Shown here: one piece after another, positions 35,586 to 42,645 of the stretch | Numbering within the stretch: position 1 is the first letter of the stretch | Layout: each line of letters begins with the position of its first letter | NCBI GenBank assembly: GCA_036375715.1 | Contig: DASVBS010000023.1 | Span: 1-54,714, forward strand | DNA: 54,714 nt | Direction: 5' to 3' | Source: Longimicrobiaceae bacterium | Lineage (GTDB): Bacteria > Gemmatimonadota > Gemmatimonadetes > Longimicrobiales > Longimicrobiaceae | The notes under the pieces: generated by a model | What the model saw: only the letters and a program-made list of their open reading frames with translations | Told to the model about the DNA's origin: nothing | Database searches by the model: none | Translations under genes and position numbers: made by a program

Positions 35586-36254
35586 ATGCGCCAGGATCTC
35601 AGCGACGGTCCCAGACCGGGCTCTCTTCGGCTGGGTGCCATCCTGGCGGGAGGCCAGAGCCGGCGCTTCGGTTCGCCGAAGGCGCTAGCGATGATCGGCG
35701 GGGTGACGCTGGTGGAGCGTGTTGCCAGACCTCTCATGCAGGCAGGAGCTCGACCGGTGTTGATCACCGGTCCCCATCTTCCCGATCTCAGCCACCTGCT
35801 GCCGTGCCGGAGTGATCTGCGACCCGGGCTCGGGCCCCTGTCGGGATTGCACACGGCGCTCGTCTGGGCGCGCGAGCTGGGGCTGAGCGGGACACTGTGC
35901 GTTGCCTGCGACATGCCCTTCCTTTCCGCCGGTCTCCTGCGCCGGATCGCCGAACTGGGAGAGGCGTCGCACGACACGGTGATCGTTCCCGAGAGCGGCG
36001 GGCCCCGCGGGATCGAGCCACTCTGCGCCTGGTATCCGGCCTCCGCCGCTCGGGTCGTGCTGAGGCAACTCGAATCGGAGGTCCGTACGATGGCCGCCCT
36101 GCTGGCGCAGATCCGCTTTCAGGTGCTACCCCTGGCAGAAGTGGCCGCTTTCGGCGATCCCGCGAGGCTATTTTACAACGTCAACACCGTCGAGGACCGC
36201 GACCGGTTCGGTCCGGCTATGCTGGATGCGGAGGAGGGGAATGGACGAGGTTGA
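35586..36254 (+). CDS. mobA: Molybdenum cofactor guanylyltransferase
   Basis: MobA attaches GMP to molybdopterin, forming the bis-MGD precursor. The 222-residue protein has the nucleotide-binding start GAILAGGQSRRFGSPKAL, the central GPLSGLHTAL and CVACDMPFLS (Asp for metal), and FYNVNTVEDRDRF at the end. ATG 35586 has AGGGGA upstream. It overlaps mobB by 14 bases. Confidence 0.94.
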   Translation: MRQDLSDGPRPGSLRLGAILAGGQSRRFGSPKALAMIGGVTLVERVARPLMQAGARPVLITGPHLPDLSHLLPCRSDLRPGLGPLSGLHTALVWARELGLSGTLCVACDMPFLSAGLLRRIAELGEASHDTVIVPESGGPRGIEPLCAWYPASAARVVLRQLESEVRTMAALLAQIRFQVLPLAEVAAFGDPARLFYNVNTVEDRDRFGPAMLDAEEGNGRG

Positions 36255-36813
36255 TCGCCCGCCGATCATCTGCTTCGTGGGGAAGAAAAACAGCGGGAAG
36301 ACCACGTTACTGGTTGCGGTCGCGGCGGAGCTGAAGCGGCGCGGACTGCGCATCGCTACAGCCAAGCACGGTCACCACGAGCTCGAGATCGACCAGCCGG
36401 GGCGCGATAGCTGGAGGCACTTCCATGAAGGCGGCGCGGAAGCGGTGCTGATCCTGTCGTCGAGAAAGCTCGCTCTGGTCATGGATACGCTCGGCGAGGA
36501 GCCGGACGTGCTGGAGGCCATCGATCGGCATTTCGGGGGGCGGGCCTACGACGCGGTGCTGGTGGAGGGCTACAAGCACGGCAACCTGCCGAAGATCGAG
36601 ATCTACCGCTCCCGGGTGCACTCGCGGCCGGTGCACGATCCCATGAACCCGGATGCTGCGGCCACCTTCCTGGCGCTCGTCACCGATGATCCCAGTGTGG
36701 CCGCGAGCTGTCCGGTGATCCCGCTCGACGGGAGCGGACCCGATGGCGGGCACGTGCAGGCGGTGGCCGACCTGGTCGAGCAACGGATCAGGAGGAATCG
36801 GGTGAATGGCTGA
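36241..36813 (+). CDS. mobB: Molybdopterin-guanine dinucleotide biosynthesis adapter MobB
   Basis: MobB is a GTP-binding protein that assists MobA. The 190-residue protein has a Walker A loop in CFVGKKNSGKTTLL, then IATAKHGHHELEIDQPGRDSW, the conserved MobB segment, and VLVEGYKHGNLPKIEIYR. ATG 36241 is preferred over 36226 because GGAGGAGGGG lies just before it. It overlaps mobA and moeA. Confidence 0.93.
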   Translation: MDEVDRPPIICFVGKKNSGKTTLLVAVAAELKRRGLRIATAKHGHHELEIDQPGRDSWRHFHEGGAEAVLILSSRKLALVMDTLGEEPDVLEAIDRHFGGRAYDAVLVEGYKHGNLPKIEIYRSRVHSRPVHDPMNPDAAATFLALVTDDPSVAASCPVIPLDGSGPDGGHVQAVADLVEQRIRRNRVNG

Positions 36814-38095
36814 GCGGCGCGCAGACTGGCTGTCCGTGACGGAGGCTCGCGAGCGGGTGCTCGCGGGGGTTGCCCCGCTGCCGCCGGAGCGGCGCCCGCT
36901 CGAGGACAGCCTCGGGTACGCGCTCGCGGAGACGATCACCTCGCCGATCGACCTTCCTCCCTGGCACAATAGCGCCATGGACGGCTACGCCGTGCGCGCC
37001 GACGACGTGCGCGGGGCGAGCGAGCAGAAGCCCGTCGTGCTGCGCCTGATCGATGACGTCCCGGCCGGCGGCTTCGCCAGACACTCCGTTTCTCCCGGAA
37101 CCGCCATCCGGGTCATGACCGGGGCGCCGGTACCGGACGGCGCTGACACGGTCGTTCGCGTGGAGCACACCGACGGGGCGGCGCTGGCAGGAGACGAAGC
37201 GCGGGTGCGCATCTTCCGTGACGACGACGCGGGACGCAACGTGCGCCTGCGCGGCGAGGATCTTCGCCATGGCGCTACGGTGCTGGAAGCCGGCACGCGC
37301 CTCAATGCGGCCGCGCTGGGAGCCGCAGCGTCAGTGGGAAAGTCGCACCTCTTCGTGCACCGCCGGCCGGTGGTGGCGATCGCCTCCTCGGGCGACGAGC
37401 TGGTCGAGGTGGACCGCTTCGACGAAGTGCTGGCCGGGCGGAAGATCGTCGCTTCGAACGGGTATTCCCTGGCTGCCCAGCTTCGCGAATCGGGCATGGG
37501 AGTGCGCCACCTGGGAATCGGCCGCGACGACCCGCAGGCGCTACGAGAGCTCCTCCTCGGGGCGAGGGGCTGCGACGCCCTCATCACCACCGCGGGCATC
37601 AGCGTTGGGGCGCACGATCACACCCGCGCCGTGCTCGAGAGCCTCGGCGTGCGCGTTGAATTCTGGCGGGTGAAGATCAAGCCAGGCTCCCCCGTGGCTT
37701 TCGGCTGGGTAGACGGGCTGGGAGGAATCCCCTGGTTCGGCCTGCCGGGCAACCCGGTTTCCGCCATGGTGACCTTCGAGCTTTTCGTCCGGCCGGCGCT
37801 CCTGCGCATGGCCGGCCACGAGGCGCTCTTCCTTCCTACGAAAGTCGTCCGGGTCACCGAACCGTACCGCAAATCGCCCGGACTGACCCACTTCGTGAGG
37901 GTGCGACTCGGTCGCGTCGAGGACGGTTGCGTGGCGAGCCTCACCGGAAATCAGGGCTCCGGCATCCTCTCCTCCATGGCCGCCGCGCACGCATTGTTGG
38001 TGGTGCCGGAGGAGTCGGATGGGATAGCCGCCGGCAATCATCTGCGGGCGATCGTGCTGGGGGGAGCGCCCCTGCGGCGATCCCCGGGCTACTAG
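36806..38095 (+). CDS. moeA: Molybdopterin molybdenumtransferase MoeA
   Basis: MoeA inserts molybdate into molybdopterin-AMP. The 429-residue protein has PPWHNSAMDGYAVRADD at the start, RVMTGAPVPDGADTVVRVE, and the catalytic domain segments ITTAGISVGAHDHT and FGLPGNPVSAMVTFELFVRP. ATG 36806 follows AGGAGG. It ends with TAG sharing CTAG with the convergent dodecin stop. Confidence 0.96.
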   Translation: MAERRADWLSVTEARERVLAGVAPLPPERRPLEDSLGYALAETITSPIDLPPWHNSAMDGYAVRADDVRGASEQKPVVLRLIDDVPAGGFARHSVSPGTAIRVMTGAPVPDGADTVVRVEHTDGAALAGDEARVRIFRDDDAGRNVRLRGEDLRHGATVLEAGTRLNAAALGAAASVGKSHLFVHRRPVVAIASSGDELVEVDRFDEVLAGRKIVASNGYSLAAQLRESGMGVRHLGIGRDDPQALRELLLGARGCDALITTAGISVGAHDHTRAVLESLGVRVEFWRVKIKPGSPVAFGWVDGLGGIPWFGLPGNPVSAMVTFELFVRPALLRMAGHEALFLPTKVVRVTEPYRKSPGLTHFVRVRLGRVEDGCVASLTGNQGSGILSSMAAAHALLVVPEESDGIAAGNHLRAIVLGGAPLRRSPGY

Positions 38096-39222: not shown

Positions 39223-39894
39223 TCAACGCCGACTCGGGGTGCGATGTGCGGAAACAGAGGGAGAATCCAGCACCCAGAAGCGCAGCGGATGCTCCACCGC
39301 GCGGGTGATGCCGATCCTCGGTCCGCGGCCAACCCGATCGTCGGGGAGCGACGCCCCGAAAGTGATCCGTAGCGGCGGCTCGAGCAGGTCGTGCCCGTTC
39401 AACCGCCCGTCGATCCCCATCGCGCGGCAGAGGTTTCCCGGCCCGCGAAGGAGTTCCACGTCCCGACGCCCAGGGCGGTGTCCGCGCATGGTCGCGAGCC
39501 CCTCGCGAGGCGCCGCAGCACGGATCAGAACCGCGGCCGGGTACTCCTCCGCGTCGGTCACCGCGTTCAGGCACCAGTGCATGCCGTAGATCAGGTAAAC
39601 GTATGCCAGACCCGGCCGGCCGAACATCATCTCGTTGCGGGCAGTGCGGCCGAAGCGCTCCGCGGCGTGGCTCGCCTCGTCGTGCGGACCCACGTACGCC
39701 TCGGTTTCCACGATCTCCGCCACACACCGATCGTGGTCGAGCTGGCGCACGAGGTATCGGCCTAGCAGGTCGCGCGCGACGATCTCCGCCGGGCGCGCAT
39801 AGAACTCGAGCGGTAGCGTCGCGTACGGATCGCCGGCAAAGCGACGGCGCCGCATCCCGTCGGGTGCGGCGCCGTGTTCGTTCCGGTGAGCCAT
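39223..39894 (-). CDS. aag: DNA-3-methyladenine glycosylase, Aag/MPG family
   Basis: The enzyme removes alkylated purines by base excision. The 223-residue protein has LARDLLGRYLVR-type start (EIVARDLLGRYLVRQL), the catalytic VAEIVETEAYVGPHDEASHA, MFGRPGLAYVYLIYGMHWCLN with the Tyr that intercalates, and LLRGPGNLCRAMGI. Its ATG shares an A with the stop of the NYN gene, so both are probably expressed together. Confidence 0.94.
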   Translation of the reverse strand: MAHRNEHGAAPDGMRRRRFAGDPYATLPLEFYARPAEIVARDLLGRYLVRQLDHDRCVAEIVETEAYVGPHDEASHAAERFGRTARNEMMFGRPGLAYVYLIYGMHWCLNAVTDAEEYPAAVLIRAAAPREGLATMRGHRPGRRDVELLRGPGNLCRAMGIDGRLNGHDLLEPPLRITFGASLPDDRVGRGPRIGITRAVEHPLRFWVLDSPSVSAHRTPSRR

Positions 39895-42539
39895 CAGCTC
39901 GATGGAGTCGTCTCCTTCTTCCGGCGCCCTCCGCCACGGCTGCCTCTCCCCCCGCGCTTGGGGCTTGCCGCTGTGGAGGAGGCAGAAGCCTTGGTCGCGG
40001 GAGCCGCCTTGGCGGCCGACTCTGCTTTTCCGGACGTCGCCCGGGAGCCCGACCGGCCGGAGGAGCGACGGTTTGCCGTCCTCGCCTTCGCGGAGGCCTT
40101 CGTGGGTTCCGCCGGCTTCACCGACCTGGCCGGAGCCGCGGGGGCAGCCTCCTGCTCGGCCTCGCCCGAGGCGCTACGACCGGCGACATCTGCCCTCCAC
40201 TGCTCGAGCACGGCGCCCGCCCGGCGCGGGCCGATCAACTCGCGTACTTCGTCCGCCTGGCTCTGCAGCGCCCGGAAGGTGCCCTCGCCGAAGCGATCGT
40301 AGAGGGCCTCCGCCGTTTTGACCCCCACCCCGCGATAGGCGCTGAGGTGAGCGACGATGCCCTCCCGATCGACCGGGAGGCCGGAGAAGGCCGCCGCCTC
40401 CGCGGCAGCGGGCGTGGTCTGCTCTGCGGCCTTCCTCCCCCTGCCACGCCCGCGTGACCTGCGCGCGGGCTGCTGCTTTTCCTCTGCCGCCTGCTGGGCA
40501 GCGGCGGGAGCGGGTTTCGCCGCCTGGCCGGGCAGGATGGGCGGGACGCCTACCGCCTCGTCCGCGTCGCCCCGGATTGCACGGGCACGCCGAGCCCGAG
40601 CCGTGATCTTGTCGATCGGCCCCTCGGGCGGCAGAGCGCGCTTGGGAGTCTCCGCAGCAGGCTTTTCCTTTCCGGCCTCGGCGGCTGGCTCTTCCTTCGC
40701 AGCGGCCGCGGCGGCTTTCTGCTTCGCAGGCTTTGCGGCCCGGGTCTTCGCCTCCGGCTGCGGGGCCTCTTCCGTGGTCCGGGACACCGCGTTCGAAGCC
40801 TCCGCTTCCGCCCCACGTCCACGACCGCGGCCGCGACGACCCCGCCGAGACTTCTTGCGCGCCTCCTCCGCGGCGGGGGCAGCCTCGTCAACTGCCGCGG
40901 CTGCCGACCCGCCGGTTGCCTCGGGCGAGGGGTCATCGACTACGGGGACTGCCGCTGCGTCCTGCTCCGCGGCAAGGCGCGTTGCCGGTGCCACCACCTG
41001 CCCCGGCAGGATGGGCGGCGGCCCCGCCAGCGCACCGGGCCGCCCGGCGCGACGTCCACGGAGTGCACCCACCCCAACCGTGCGGATCGTTGCCGGCGTG
41101 CTCTCGGCCGCTGCAGCGGCGTCCGGCGCCGTTGCCCCCTCGGCCGCAGCTGGCGTCGCTTCCGGCAACTCCGCCTTTGGCTCTGCCTTCTCTGCTACCG
41201 CCTCCGCCGCCGTATTCTTCCCGGCGCGCGCCTCCGCTGCCGGCCGGGCCGGCGGGGCCGACACGCTCTTTGGCGGGGGCAGGCGCTTGCCGCTGGCGGG
41301 CAACGCGACCTCGTAGTTGCCGCCGTTCGACCGCTGCAGATCGATCACTTCGGCGTCGTGCGCCTGCCGCAGGAACCGCGTGAACTTGCTGAAGCCGAGG
41401 ACGGCCTCATCGAAGCCGGGCGAGAGGTCCAGCATCTTGCGCTTCACGTCGCCGTCGCGCACGGCCTTCGCGCCACCCGAGGTGAGCTCGCGAAGAGCCG
41501 CCTGCAACAGTGCATAGGCCTGCTCGATTCCCGTGCCGTCTTCGGCAAGAGCGGTTTCCCTGTCCGCCCCGACGACGGGGGGAGCTTCGGCAACCGGCTG
41601 GAGCACCTCGGTCGCCTCGGCCTCCTTTTCGGTAGCCGTTTCCGCAGCGACTTCCTCCTGGCGGGGGCTCGGCGTGTGGCGCCCATCGCGACGAGGCTCG
41701 CGTTCCCGCTCGCGGCCGCGGCCGCGGCGGGGCTCGACGCCTTCAGCCGCCTCGGGCGCAGCCTCCACCTCGTCGCTCGGCACCAGCTCGTACTGTCCGT
41801 TCTCCCCCTTGCGCAGCCGGACGATCCCCTTGTTGGCGGCCTCCTGCACGAAGCGCGAGAACTTGCTGTAGCCGAGCTTCTTCTCGTCGAAGGCAGGGTC
41901 CAGATCGAGCATCACCTGCTTCAGCCGATCCGTTCGCATGACGTCGCCGTTCGCCTCCATCTGCTCGGCGGCGCGCCTCACCAGCACCCAGGGATCCTCC
42001 GTCGACTCCTGCACCTCGCCCGTCCGGGTCAGCCCCGAGAGCGAATGGTACGAGTAGTACTCGTCGCAGTTCTGGATGAGGAGGTCGCTGGAGGATTCAC
42101 GCATCCCCACGCCGATGACGTACTTGCCGTACTCCTTGAGCTTCAGCACGCAGCTCGAGAAGTCGGAATCGCCCGTCATGAGGATGAAGGTCCCGATCTC
42201 CGGGCGGGTGAAGACGAGCTCGATCGCGTCGATCGCCATGCGGAGGTCGGTCGCGTTCTTCTTGGACGACCCGTAGGCGGGCGCGAAGATGAGATCGATC
42301 GAGGATTCGGCGAGGGGAACGATGTACTGCGGATAGCGGCGCCAGTCGGCGTAGGCTCTCTGCACCGCGACCTTGCCGCGGATCACGTCCGAGTTGAGCA
42401 GCGCCTTGAGCTCTTTGCCCAGGTCGCTGCGAATGCCCATCGTGACGTTGTCGAAATCGATCAGAAGCGCCGCGTTCGGCGCATGGGAGTAGCCGGCGGT
42501 CCCCGGAAAGGGGGAGCGCTGGCCGGATGGAGAAATCAT
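39894..42539 (-). CDS. NYN nuclease with two OST-HTH/LOTUS domains, RG-rich linker and HhH end
   Basis: The 881-residue protein has an N-terminal NYN (PIN-like) RNase domain with acidic residues in ALLIDFDNV, KNATDLRMAIDAIEL and LMTGDSDFSSC (about 25-155). Two OST-HTH/LOTUS domains follow (about 180-255, KLGYSKFSRFVQ; about 335-410, VLGFSKFTRFLRQ), which bind RNA. A 350-residue disordered, Ala/Pro/Glu-rich linker carries an Arg-Gly stretch (RRGRRGRGRGRG) and two copies of PPILPGQ. A helix-hairpin-helix region (LSAYRGVGVKTAEALYDRFG) and a basic Gly/Arg end close it. Start is ATG 42539; GTG 42548 is an alternative. It overlaps aag by one base. Confidence 0.85.
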   Translation of the reverse strand: MISPSGQRSPFPGTAGYSHAPNAALLIDFDNVTMGIRSDLGKELKALLNSDVIRGKVAVQRAYADWRRYPQYIVPLAESSIDLIFAPAYGSSKKNATDLRMAIDAIELVFTRPEIGTFILMTGDSDFSSCVLKLKEYGKYVIGVGMRESSSDLLIQNCDEYYSYHSLSGLTRTGEVQESTEDPWVLVRRAAEQMEANGDVMRTDRLKQVMLDLDPAFDEKKLGYSKFSRFVQEAANKGIVRLRKGENGQYELVPSDEVEAAPEAAEGVEPRRGRGREREREPRRDGRHTPSPRQEEVAAETATEKEAEATEVLQPVAEAPPVVGADRETALAEDGTGIEQAYALLQAALRELTSGGAKAVRDGDVKRKMLDLSPGFDEAVLGFSKFTRFLRQAHDAEVIDLQRSNGGNYEVALPASGKRLPPPKSVSAPPARPAAEARAGKNTAAEAVAEKAEPKAELPEATPAAAEGATAPDAAAAAESTPATIRTVGVGALRGRRAGRPGALAGPPPILPGQVVAPATRLAAEQDAAAVPVVDDPSPEATGGSAAAAVDEAAPAAEEARKKSRRGRRGRGRGRGAEAEASNAVSRTTEEAPQPEAKTRAAKPAKQKAAAAAAKEEPAAEAGKEKPAAETPKRALPPEGPIDKITARARRARAIRGDADEAVGVPPILPGQAAKPAPAAAQQAAEEKQQPARRSRGRGRGRKAAEQTTPAAAEAAAFSGLPVDREGIVAHLSAYRGVGVKTAEALYDRFGEGTFRALQSQADEVRELIGPRRAGAVLEQWRADVAGRSASGEAEQEAAPAAPARSVKPAEPTKASAKARTANRRSSGRSGSRATSGKAESAAKAAPATKASASSTAASPKRGGRGSRGGGRRKKETTPSS

Positions 42540-42645
42540 CTGATGCACTCTGTCTCGTCTGTTGGATTCGACGAGACCCCTCCGTCTCTCCCCGCGCCCC
42601 GCGCGGGGGACGACGGGAGGAGCCTCGTCCTGTTACTGTCCTGCT

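Follow-up and report, generated by a model that had tools for sequence, protein, structure and literature searches.

Work on LOTUS-NYN proteins has dealt with animal germ cells and with plants, and the locus described here raises the question of what such a protein does in a bacterium, and of whether the long arm attached to it serves as a scaffold. The window, by which we mean the whole stretch of 54,714 nucleotides that was analysed (contig DASVBS010000023.1 of a Longimicrobiaceae bacterium), encodes on its reverse strand (39894-42539) an 881-residue protein in which an NYN domain is followed by two LOTUS/OST-HTH domains, a disordered arm of about 300 residues, a folded domain of the (HhH)2 type and, at the end, a basic tail. 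A preliminary description had read this as a possible RNA-processing scaffold with a plan like that of RNase E, and the interpretation is partly supported: the domains, the glycosylase neighbour and the conservation of an arm motif all hold, but there are closer comparisons than RNase E. We favor, with moderate confidence, a reading in which the protein functions in the manner of MARF1 and represents a version of the bacterial LK-nuclease (NYN) plus OST-HTH family elaborated in this lineage. The arm and the DNA-repair neighbour, judged from the sequence, suggest that it may have a specific job.

The NYN-LOTUS core and its distribution

The open reading frame starts at an ATG, with a GTG nine bases upstream at 42548, and the features of the protein given below all lie on the reverse strand. 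The N-terminal NYN (LK-nuclease/PIN-like) domain (residues 23-163, 42051-42473) is recognized by Pfam (E 2.6e-24), and its fold matches those of VPA0982 (2qip) and the MARF1 NYN domain (5yaa), the central part of the AlphaFold model being of low confidence. None of its three acidic motifs, LIDFDN, KKNATD and GDSDF, varies among the aligned relatives. Pfam OST-HTH matches two further stretches (1.5e-9), corresponding to a first LOTUS domain (residues 182-256, 41772-41996) and a second (residues 340-414, 41298-41522; pLDDT about 90), a duplicated copy of it (hhalign 99.6%, 32% identity). Both are well predicted by AlphaFold and match the TDRD7 LOTUS domain (3rco, TM 0.81 by target) and NE0665 (2kpm) in Foldseek comparisons, and they are separated by a disordered linker (41523-41771; pLDDT about 30-36) that is variable in the alignment and contains an RGRGRERERE block (41697-41729). 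Pfam, hhalign, the models and the fold searches thus bear out the domain order first proposed, NYN, LOTUS, LOTUS, Arg-Gly arm and HhH. A chance or artefactual reading frame antisense in high-GC DNA can be dismissed, because orthologues in the relatives and across the phylum conserve the protein and the arm motif varies at third codon positions.

An N-terminal NYN/DUF88 domain with conserved acidic residues, followed by one or two OST-HTH domains, is the composition of the bacterial LK-nuclease/OST-HTH family (Pfam PF01936 and PF12872) described in 2010 by Anantharaman et al. (PMC2848206), such that the pairing was rightly called a known one. In the available portion of that paper, an RNA role is predicted for the family and no conserved linkage with known RNA-processing genes is reported. 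The window protein differs from the description given there in its (HhH)2 end, its long Arg-Gly arm and its conserved motif, and also in that a DNA glycosylase gene is linked to it across the class, whereas the same portion of the paper describes no conserved neighbourhood with known RNA-processing genes. The conserved motif of the arm, the terminal HhH and the linkage to a glycosylase across the class are new relative to that part of the family description, and the core is that of a known family.

RNase activity is the family prediction for the window protein, and in the MARF1-like reading the NYN domain would act as a Mg-dependent endoribonuclease. Both NYN and LOTUS are supported by sequence and by fold, and the NYN domain of human MARF1 is an endoribonuclease in a protein that binds the decapping factors (PMC6294520). 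MARF1 (Limkain b1) of human and mouse shares the NYN endoribonuclease fold and LOTUS domains with the window protein and contacts the decapping complex, but it differs in having RRM domains, eight LOTUS domains, no HhH and different partners. The two LOTUS domains would select RNA, probably G-rich or structured; LOTUS domains, those of bacteria included, are reported to bind G4 RNA (cited in PMC12247748). We have also considered a catalytically idle RNA-binding or silencing factor, in which NYN only binds RNA and the Arg-Gly arm forms RNP condensates. An RG-rich disordered arm together with LOTUS domains is indeed a feature of RNP granule proteins, but a dead enzyme has no need of acidic motifs that are invariant across the aligned relatives, and we regard this as highly improbable.

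The NYN-LOTUS gene is near-universal in one class of Gemmatimonadota. The core is present in 232 of 249 sampled Gemmatimonadota genomes, as a single copy in all except one, and in 58 of the 61 genomes drawn as relatives. One family outside the class (f10) was sampled with six genomes, none of which has the core. A single core per genome with this near-universal occurrence argues for a housekeeping rather than a mobile gene; a mobile defence gene was rejected on these grounds and because PADLOC returned no defence match for it. The named relatives are Gemmatimonadota, mostly metagenome bins, with Longimicrobiales and Gemmatimonadaceae among them. A contig labelled Gammaproteobacteria (L088, JAHEKL010000027) also carries the gene in a form typical of Gemmatimonadota (77% identity), and is probably a mislabelled or mixed metagenome bin. 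More distantly, plasmid NYN proteins of Burkholderiales (Eleftheria terrae WP_301260509 and Caballeronia WP_244818731) are about 30% identical over NYN and the region following it and share Arg/Ala-rich basic tails with the window protein, but they are shorter (390-497 residues), without HhH or LOTUS matches in Pfam and without a glycosylase neighbour.

A literature search joining 'NYN domain' with Gemmatimonadota returned nothing, and one joining it with helix-hairpin-helix returned only a HEPN survey; no bacterial LOTUS-NYN member with a described function was found in the literature searched.

The disordered arm, its short motif and the scaffold question

The arm (residues 415-713, 40401-41297) is composed of 29% Ala, 12% Pro and 10% Arg, carries a net charge of +14, and contains no Phe, Tyr, Trp, Met or Cys. 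Within it are an Arg-Gly block, SRRGRRGRGRGRG (40812-40850), and exactly two copies of PPILPGQ, the first of which is canonical (LRGRRAGR...GPPPILPGQ, 40998-41063, with PPILPGQ itself at 40998-41018), and the second of which (40524-40544) has a weaker basic context and is mostly absent from relatives. PPILPGQ represents one variant of a short linear motif, RRGxRGR-x5-PP[LI][LF][PE]GQ, in which the basic RRGxRGR is separated by about five residues from the PP[LI][LF][PE]GQ element, with small hydrophobic residues thereafter. Scanned for across the 4.4-Mb genome as a strict DNA pattern, PPILPGQ has no third site, and the idea that other proteins encoded there share the motif in this form was set aside since only these two sites are matched.

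The motif, searched as P.[LIVFAM][LFMI][PEADQ]GQ, is present in 35 of the 53 HhH-bearing orthologues, whereas 1000 shuffles of the arms give 0.026 on average and never more than one, which rules out a low-complexity coincidence. The 49 copies, in which P, G and Q are fixed by the search pattern itself, are encoded by 44 distinct DNA sequences that differ at third codon positions, indicating that selection acts on the protein. Relatives have between zero and three copies and usually one, so the pair in the window reflects a local duplication; the twin motif noted in the preliminary description is an accurate account of this protein, but it does not define the family. That description had also tied its case to conservation of the linker and motif, and here the motif is kept but the linker is not, since the arms of relatives range from about 0 to 395 residues and do not align apart from the motif. 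In five orthologues (L047, L062, L067, L071 and L095) the arm is reduced to about zero residues and the motif is absent, and both are thus dispensable for core activity.

A motif profile gives one further clear match (L126) and weak ones in families lacking the HhH (L113 and L146). In the arms of five HhH-less relatives (L096, L113, L128, L146 and L151) there is a block, RRGxRG...PPE(L/I)..xGVV, at the position of PPLLPGQ; its profile score is too weak to prove a common origin with the PPLLPGQ motif, and the resemblance is suggestive of an ancestral class-wide motif. In the MARF1-like reading the long Arg-Gly arm would add non-specific RNA affinity, and the conserved motif, with its basic stretch and PP[LI][LF][PE]GQ, would dock one protein partner. 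The motif points to one specific partner, whose identification could reveal the first bacterial LOTUS-nuclease pathway.

The C-terminal scaffold of RNase E in E. coli and Pseudomonas resembles the window protein in that a nuclease is followed by a long disordered arm with Arg-rich blocks and short motifs. RNase E arms use Arg-rich and short motifs that can be duplicated (PMC11964227), and a scaffold-like mode of working is therefore plausible, with scaffolding like that of RNase E being possible by analogy. The disordered arm with conserved short motifs is however a resemblance of plan and not of homology: the nuclease is NYN rather than an RNase E/G catalytic domain, to which it is unrelated, and RNase E has neither LOTUS nor HhH. 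The RNase E-like plan thus stands as far as the arm and its conserved motif are concerned, but MARF1 and the LK-nuclease/OST-HTH family are closer.

The same genome encodes elsewhere an RNase E/G of 516 residues without a C-terminal scaffold arm, and it encodes RNase Y; RNase J (TIGR00649) was not found in it. An armless RNase E/G fits the scaffold reading loosely, in that it leaves room for a possible separate scaffold. A degradosome-like hub, in which the arm motifs and Arg-Gly blocks assemble RNA-decay enzymes and so compensate for the armless RNase E/G, would fit this complement of enzymes and the role of Arg-rich and short, sometimes duplicated motifs in the assembly of RNase E scaffolds (PMC11964227), as well as a motif number that ranges from zero to three. 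Only one conserved motif type was found, however, as opposed to the several partner sites of RNase E, and five orthologues are entirely without an arm, and we consider such a hub unlikely.

The C-terminal HhH domain and the glycosylase neighbour

The C-terminal domain (residues 716-795, 40155-40394) scores 0.014 with Pfam HHH_5 in the window protein, which is below the cut-off, but an alignment of 28 orthologous ends, in which GVGxKTA is nearly invariant and the GxG core invariant, yields an AlphaFold model (pLDDT 91) of a five-helix (HhH)2-like domain. It has the GxG hairpin between helices and the two packed HhH-like units that characterize the (HhH)2 superfamily, the second unit being degenerate. 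When solved structures are searched with the HhH profile, the leading matches are archaeal XPF (2e-5), Topoisomerase V and a 3-methyladenine DNA glycosylase, and fold comparison identifies RuvA, NusA, FAAP24, Hel308 and XPF at moderate Z (VIA-align values of up to 7.7 to RuvA, and 6-7 to XPF, NusA and FAAP24). These matches mark an HhH of the nucleic-acid type, compatible with RNA, DNA or protein as its ligand, and in the MARF1-like reading the domain would hold structured nucleic acid or a second partner. The protein ends with a basic disordered tail (39897-40154) terminating in RGGRGSRGGGRRKK.

In the order to which the window belongs, a phylum profile of the HhH domain matches 68 of 74 genomes by our count. 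The six without a match comprise four in which a contig end truncates the gene and two that are without the core. The profile also matches families f7 and f9, where the matches checked fall in the same gene as the core; none was seen in f4 or f6, and one of the two matches in f5 (G184) is on a different contig from the core. Matches in the outgroup family f10, which is without the NYN core, are probably to another protein such as RecD2. Orthologues of the Gemmatimonadaceae type have NYN, LOTUS, a LOTUS-like domain and an Arg-Gly arm, with the HhH absent. At the C-termini of L128, L133, L047, L067 and L071 there is a short aromatic/basic helix-like stretch (ESFWSKVKRGL, SGLFGLFRQGRRSR), which from its sequence might serve as an amphipathic anchor to a membrane or a partner.

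The gene immediately downstream (39223-39894, reverse strand) encodes a methylpurine-DNA glycosylase (MPG/AAG; Pfam PF02245, 2.9e-64), which the preliminary description had recognized as a DNA glycosylase. Of the 71 loci that could be scored, 61 have the two genes side by side and in the same direction, with a median distance to the aligned glycosylase start of 32-40 bases. In the window the glycosylase ATG and the NYN stop codon share one base within TGATG (39892-39896), and this overlap together with the conserved gene order leads us to infer that the two genes are co-transcribed. In lineages lacking the HhH, the glycosylase is linked in 17 of 19 loci and the upstream acyl-CoA synthetase in 7 of 17, such that the glycosylase linkage outlasts general gene order. 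The linkage is lost in some loci in which the NYN gene is intact. At L091, L092, L098, L108, L141 and L145 the glycosylase is missing and a gene for an antiporter-like membrane protein is directly downstream, which suggests that a conserved gene order has lost its glycosylase. The conserved DNA glycosylase link provides a second testable handle on function.

Several observations weigh against the MARF1-like reading, namely that some orthologues are without the arm and motif, that the central part of the NYN model is of low confidence, that the HhH resembles those of DNA-repair proteins (XPF, Topoisomerase V and 3-methyladenine glycosylase) as much as that of the RNA-related NusA, and that the adjacent gene encodes a DNA glycosylase. 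The last two raise the alternative of a DNA- or R-loop-directed nuclease acting in base-damage repair with the adjacent MPG, with the HhH placing the nuclease on damaged or branched DNA, which would account for the leading profile matches of the HhH and for a linkage more persistent than that of the acyl-CoA synthetase. However, in other systems LOTUS and NYN domains have been seen to act on RNA, a few loci keep the NYN gene without an adjacent MPG, and the linkage persists in families without the HhH, so that the HhH does not explain it; we consider this alternative rather improbable. A broader proposal, which we advance only as speculation and believe to be distinctly doubtful, is that an RNA-decay or RNA-damage hub has evolved independently on an NYN-LOTUS nuclease in this class of Gemmatimonadota, in which the motif would recruit one conserved partner, the (HhH)2 domain would serve as an anchor for nucleic acid that is branched or damaged, and the operon with the glycosylase would connect RNA clearance with base-damage repair.

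No RNA family was found near the NYN gene, and no terminator-like site on its strand. Farther downstream in the window are an inositol-monophosphatase-family gene and a gene for dodecin, and the cluster is adjoined by molybdenum-cofactor-type genes (35586-38095, forward strand), MobA-, MobB- and MoeA-like by sequence, that converge on dodecin.
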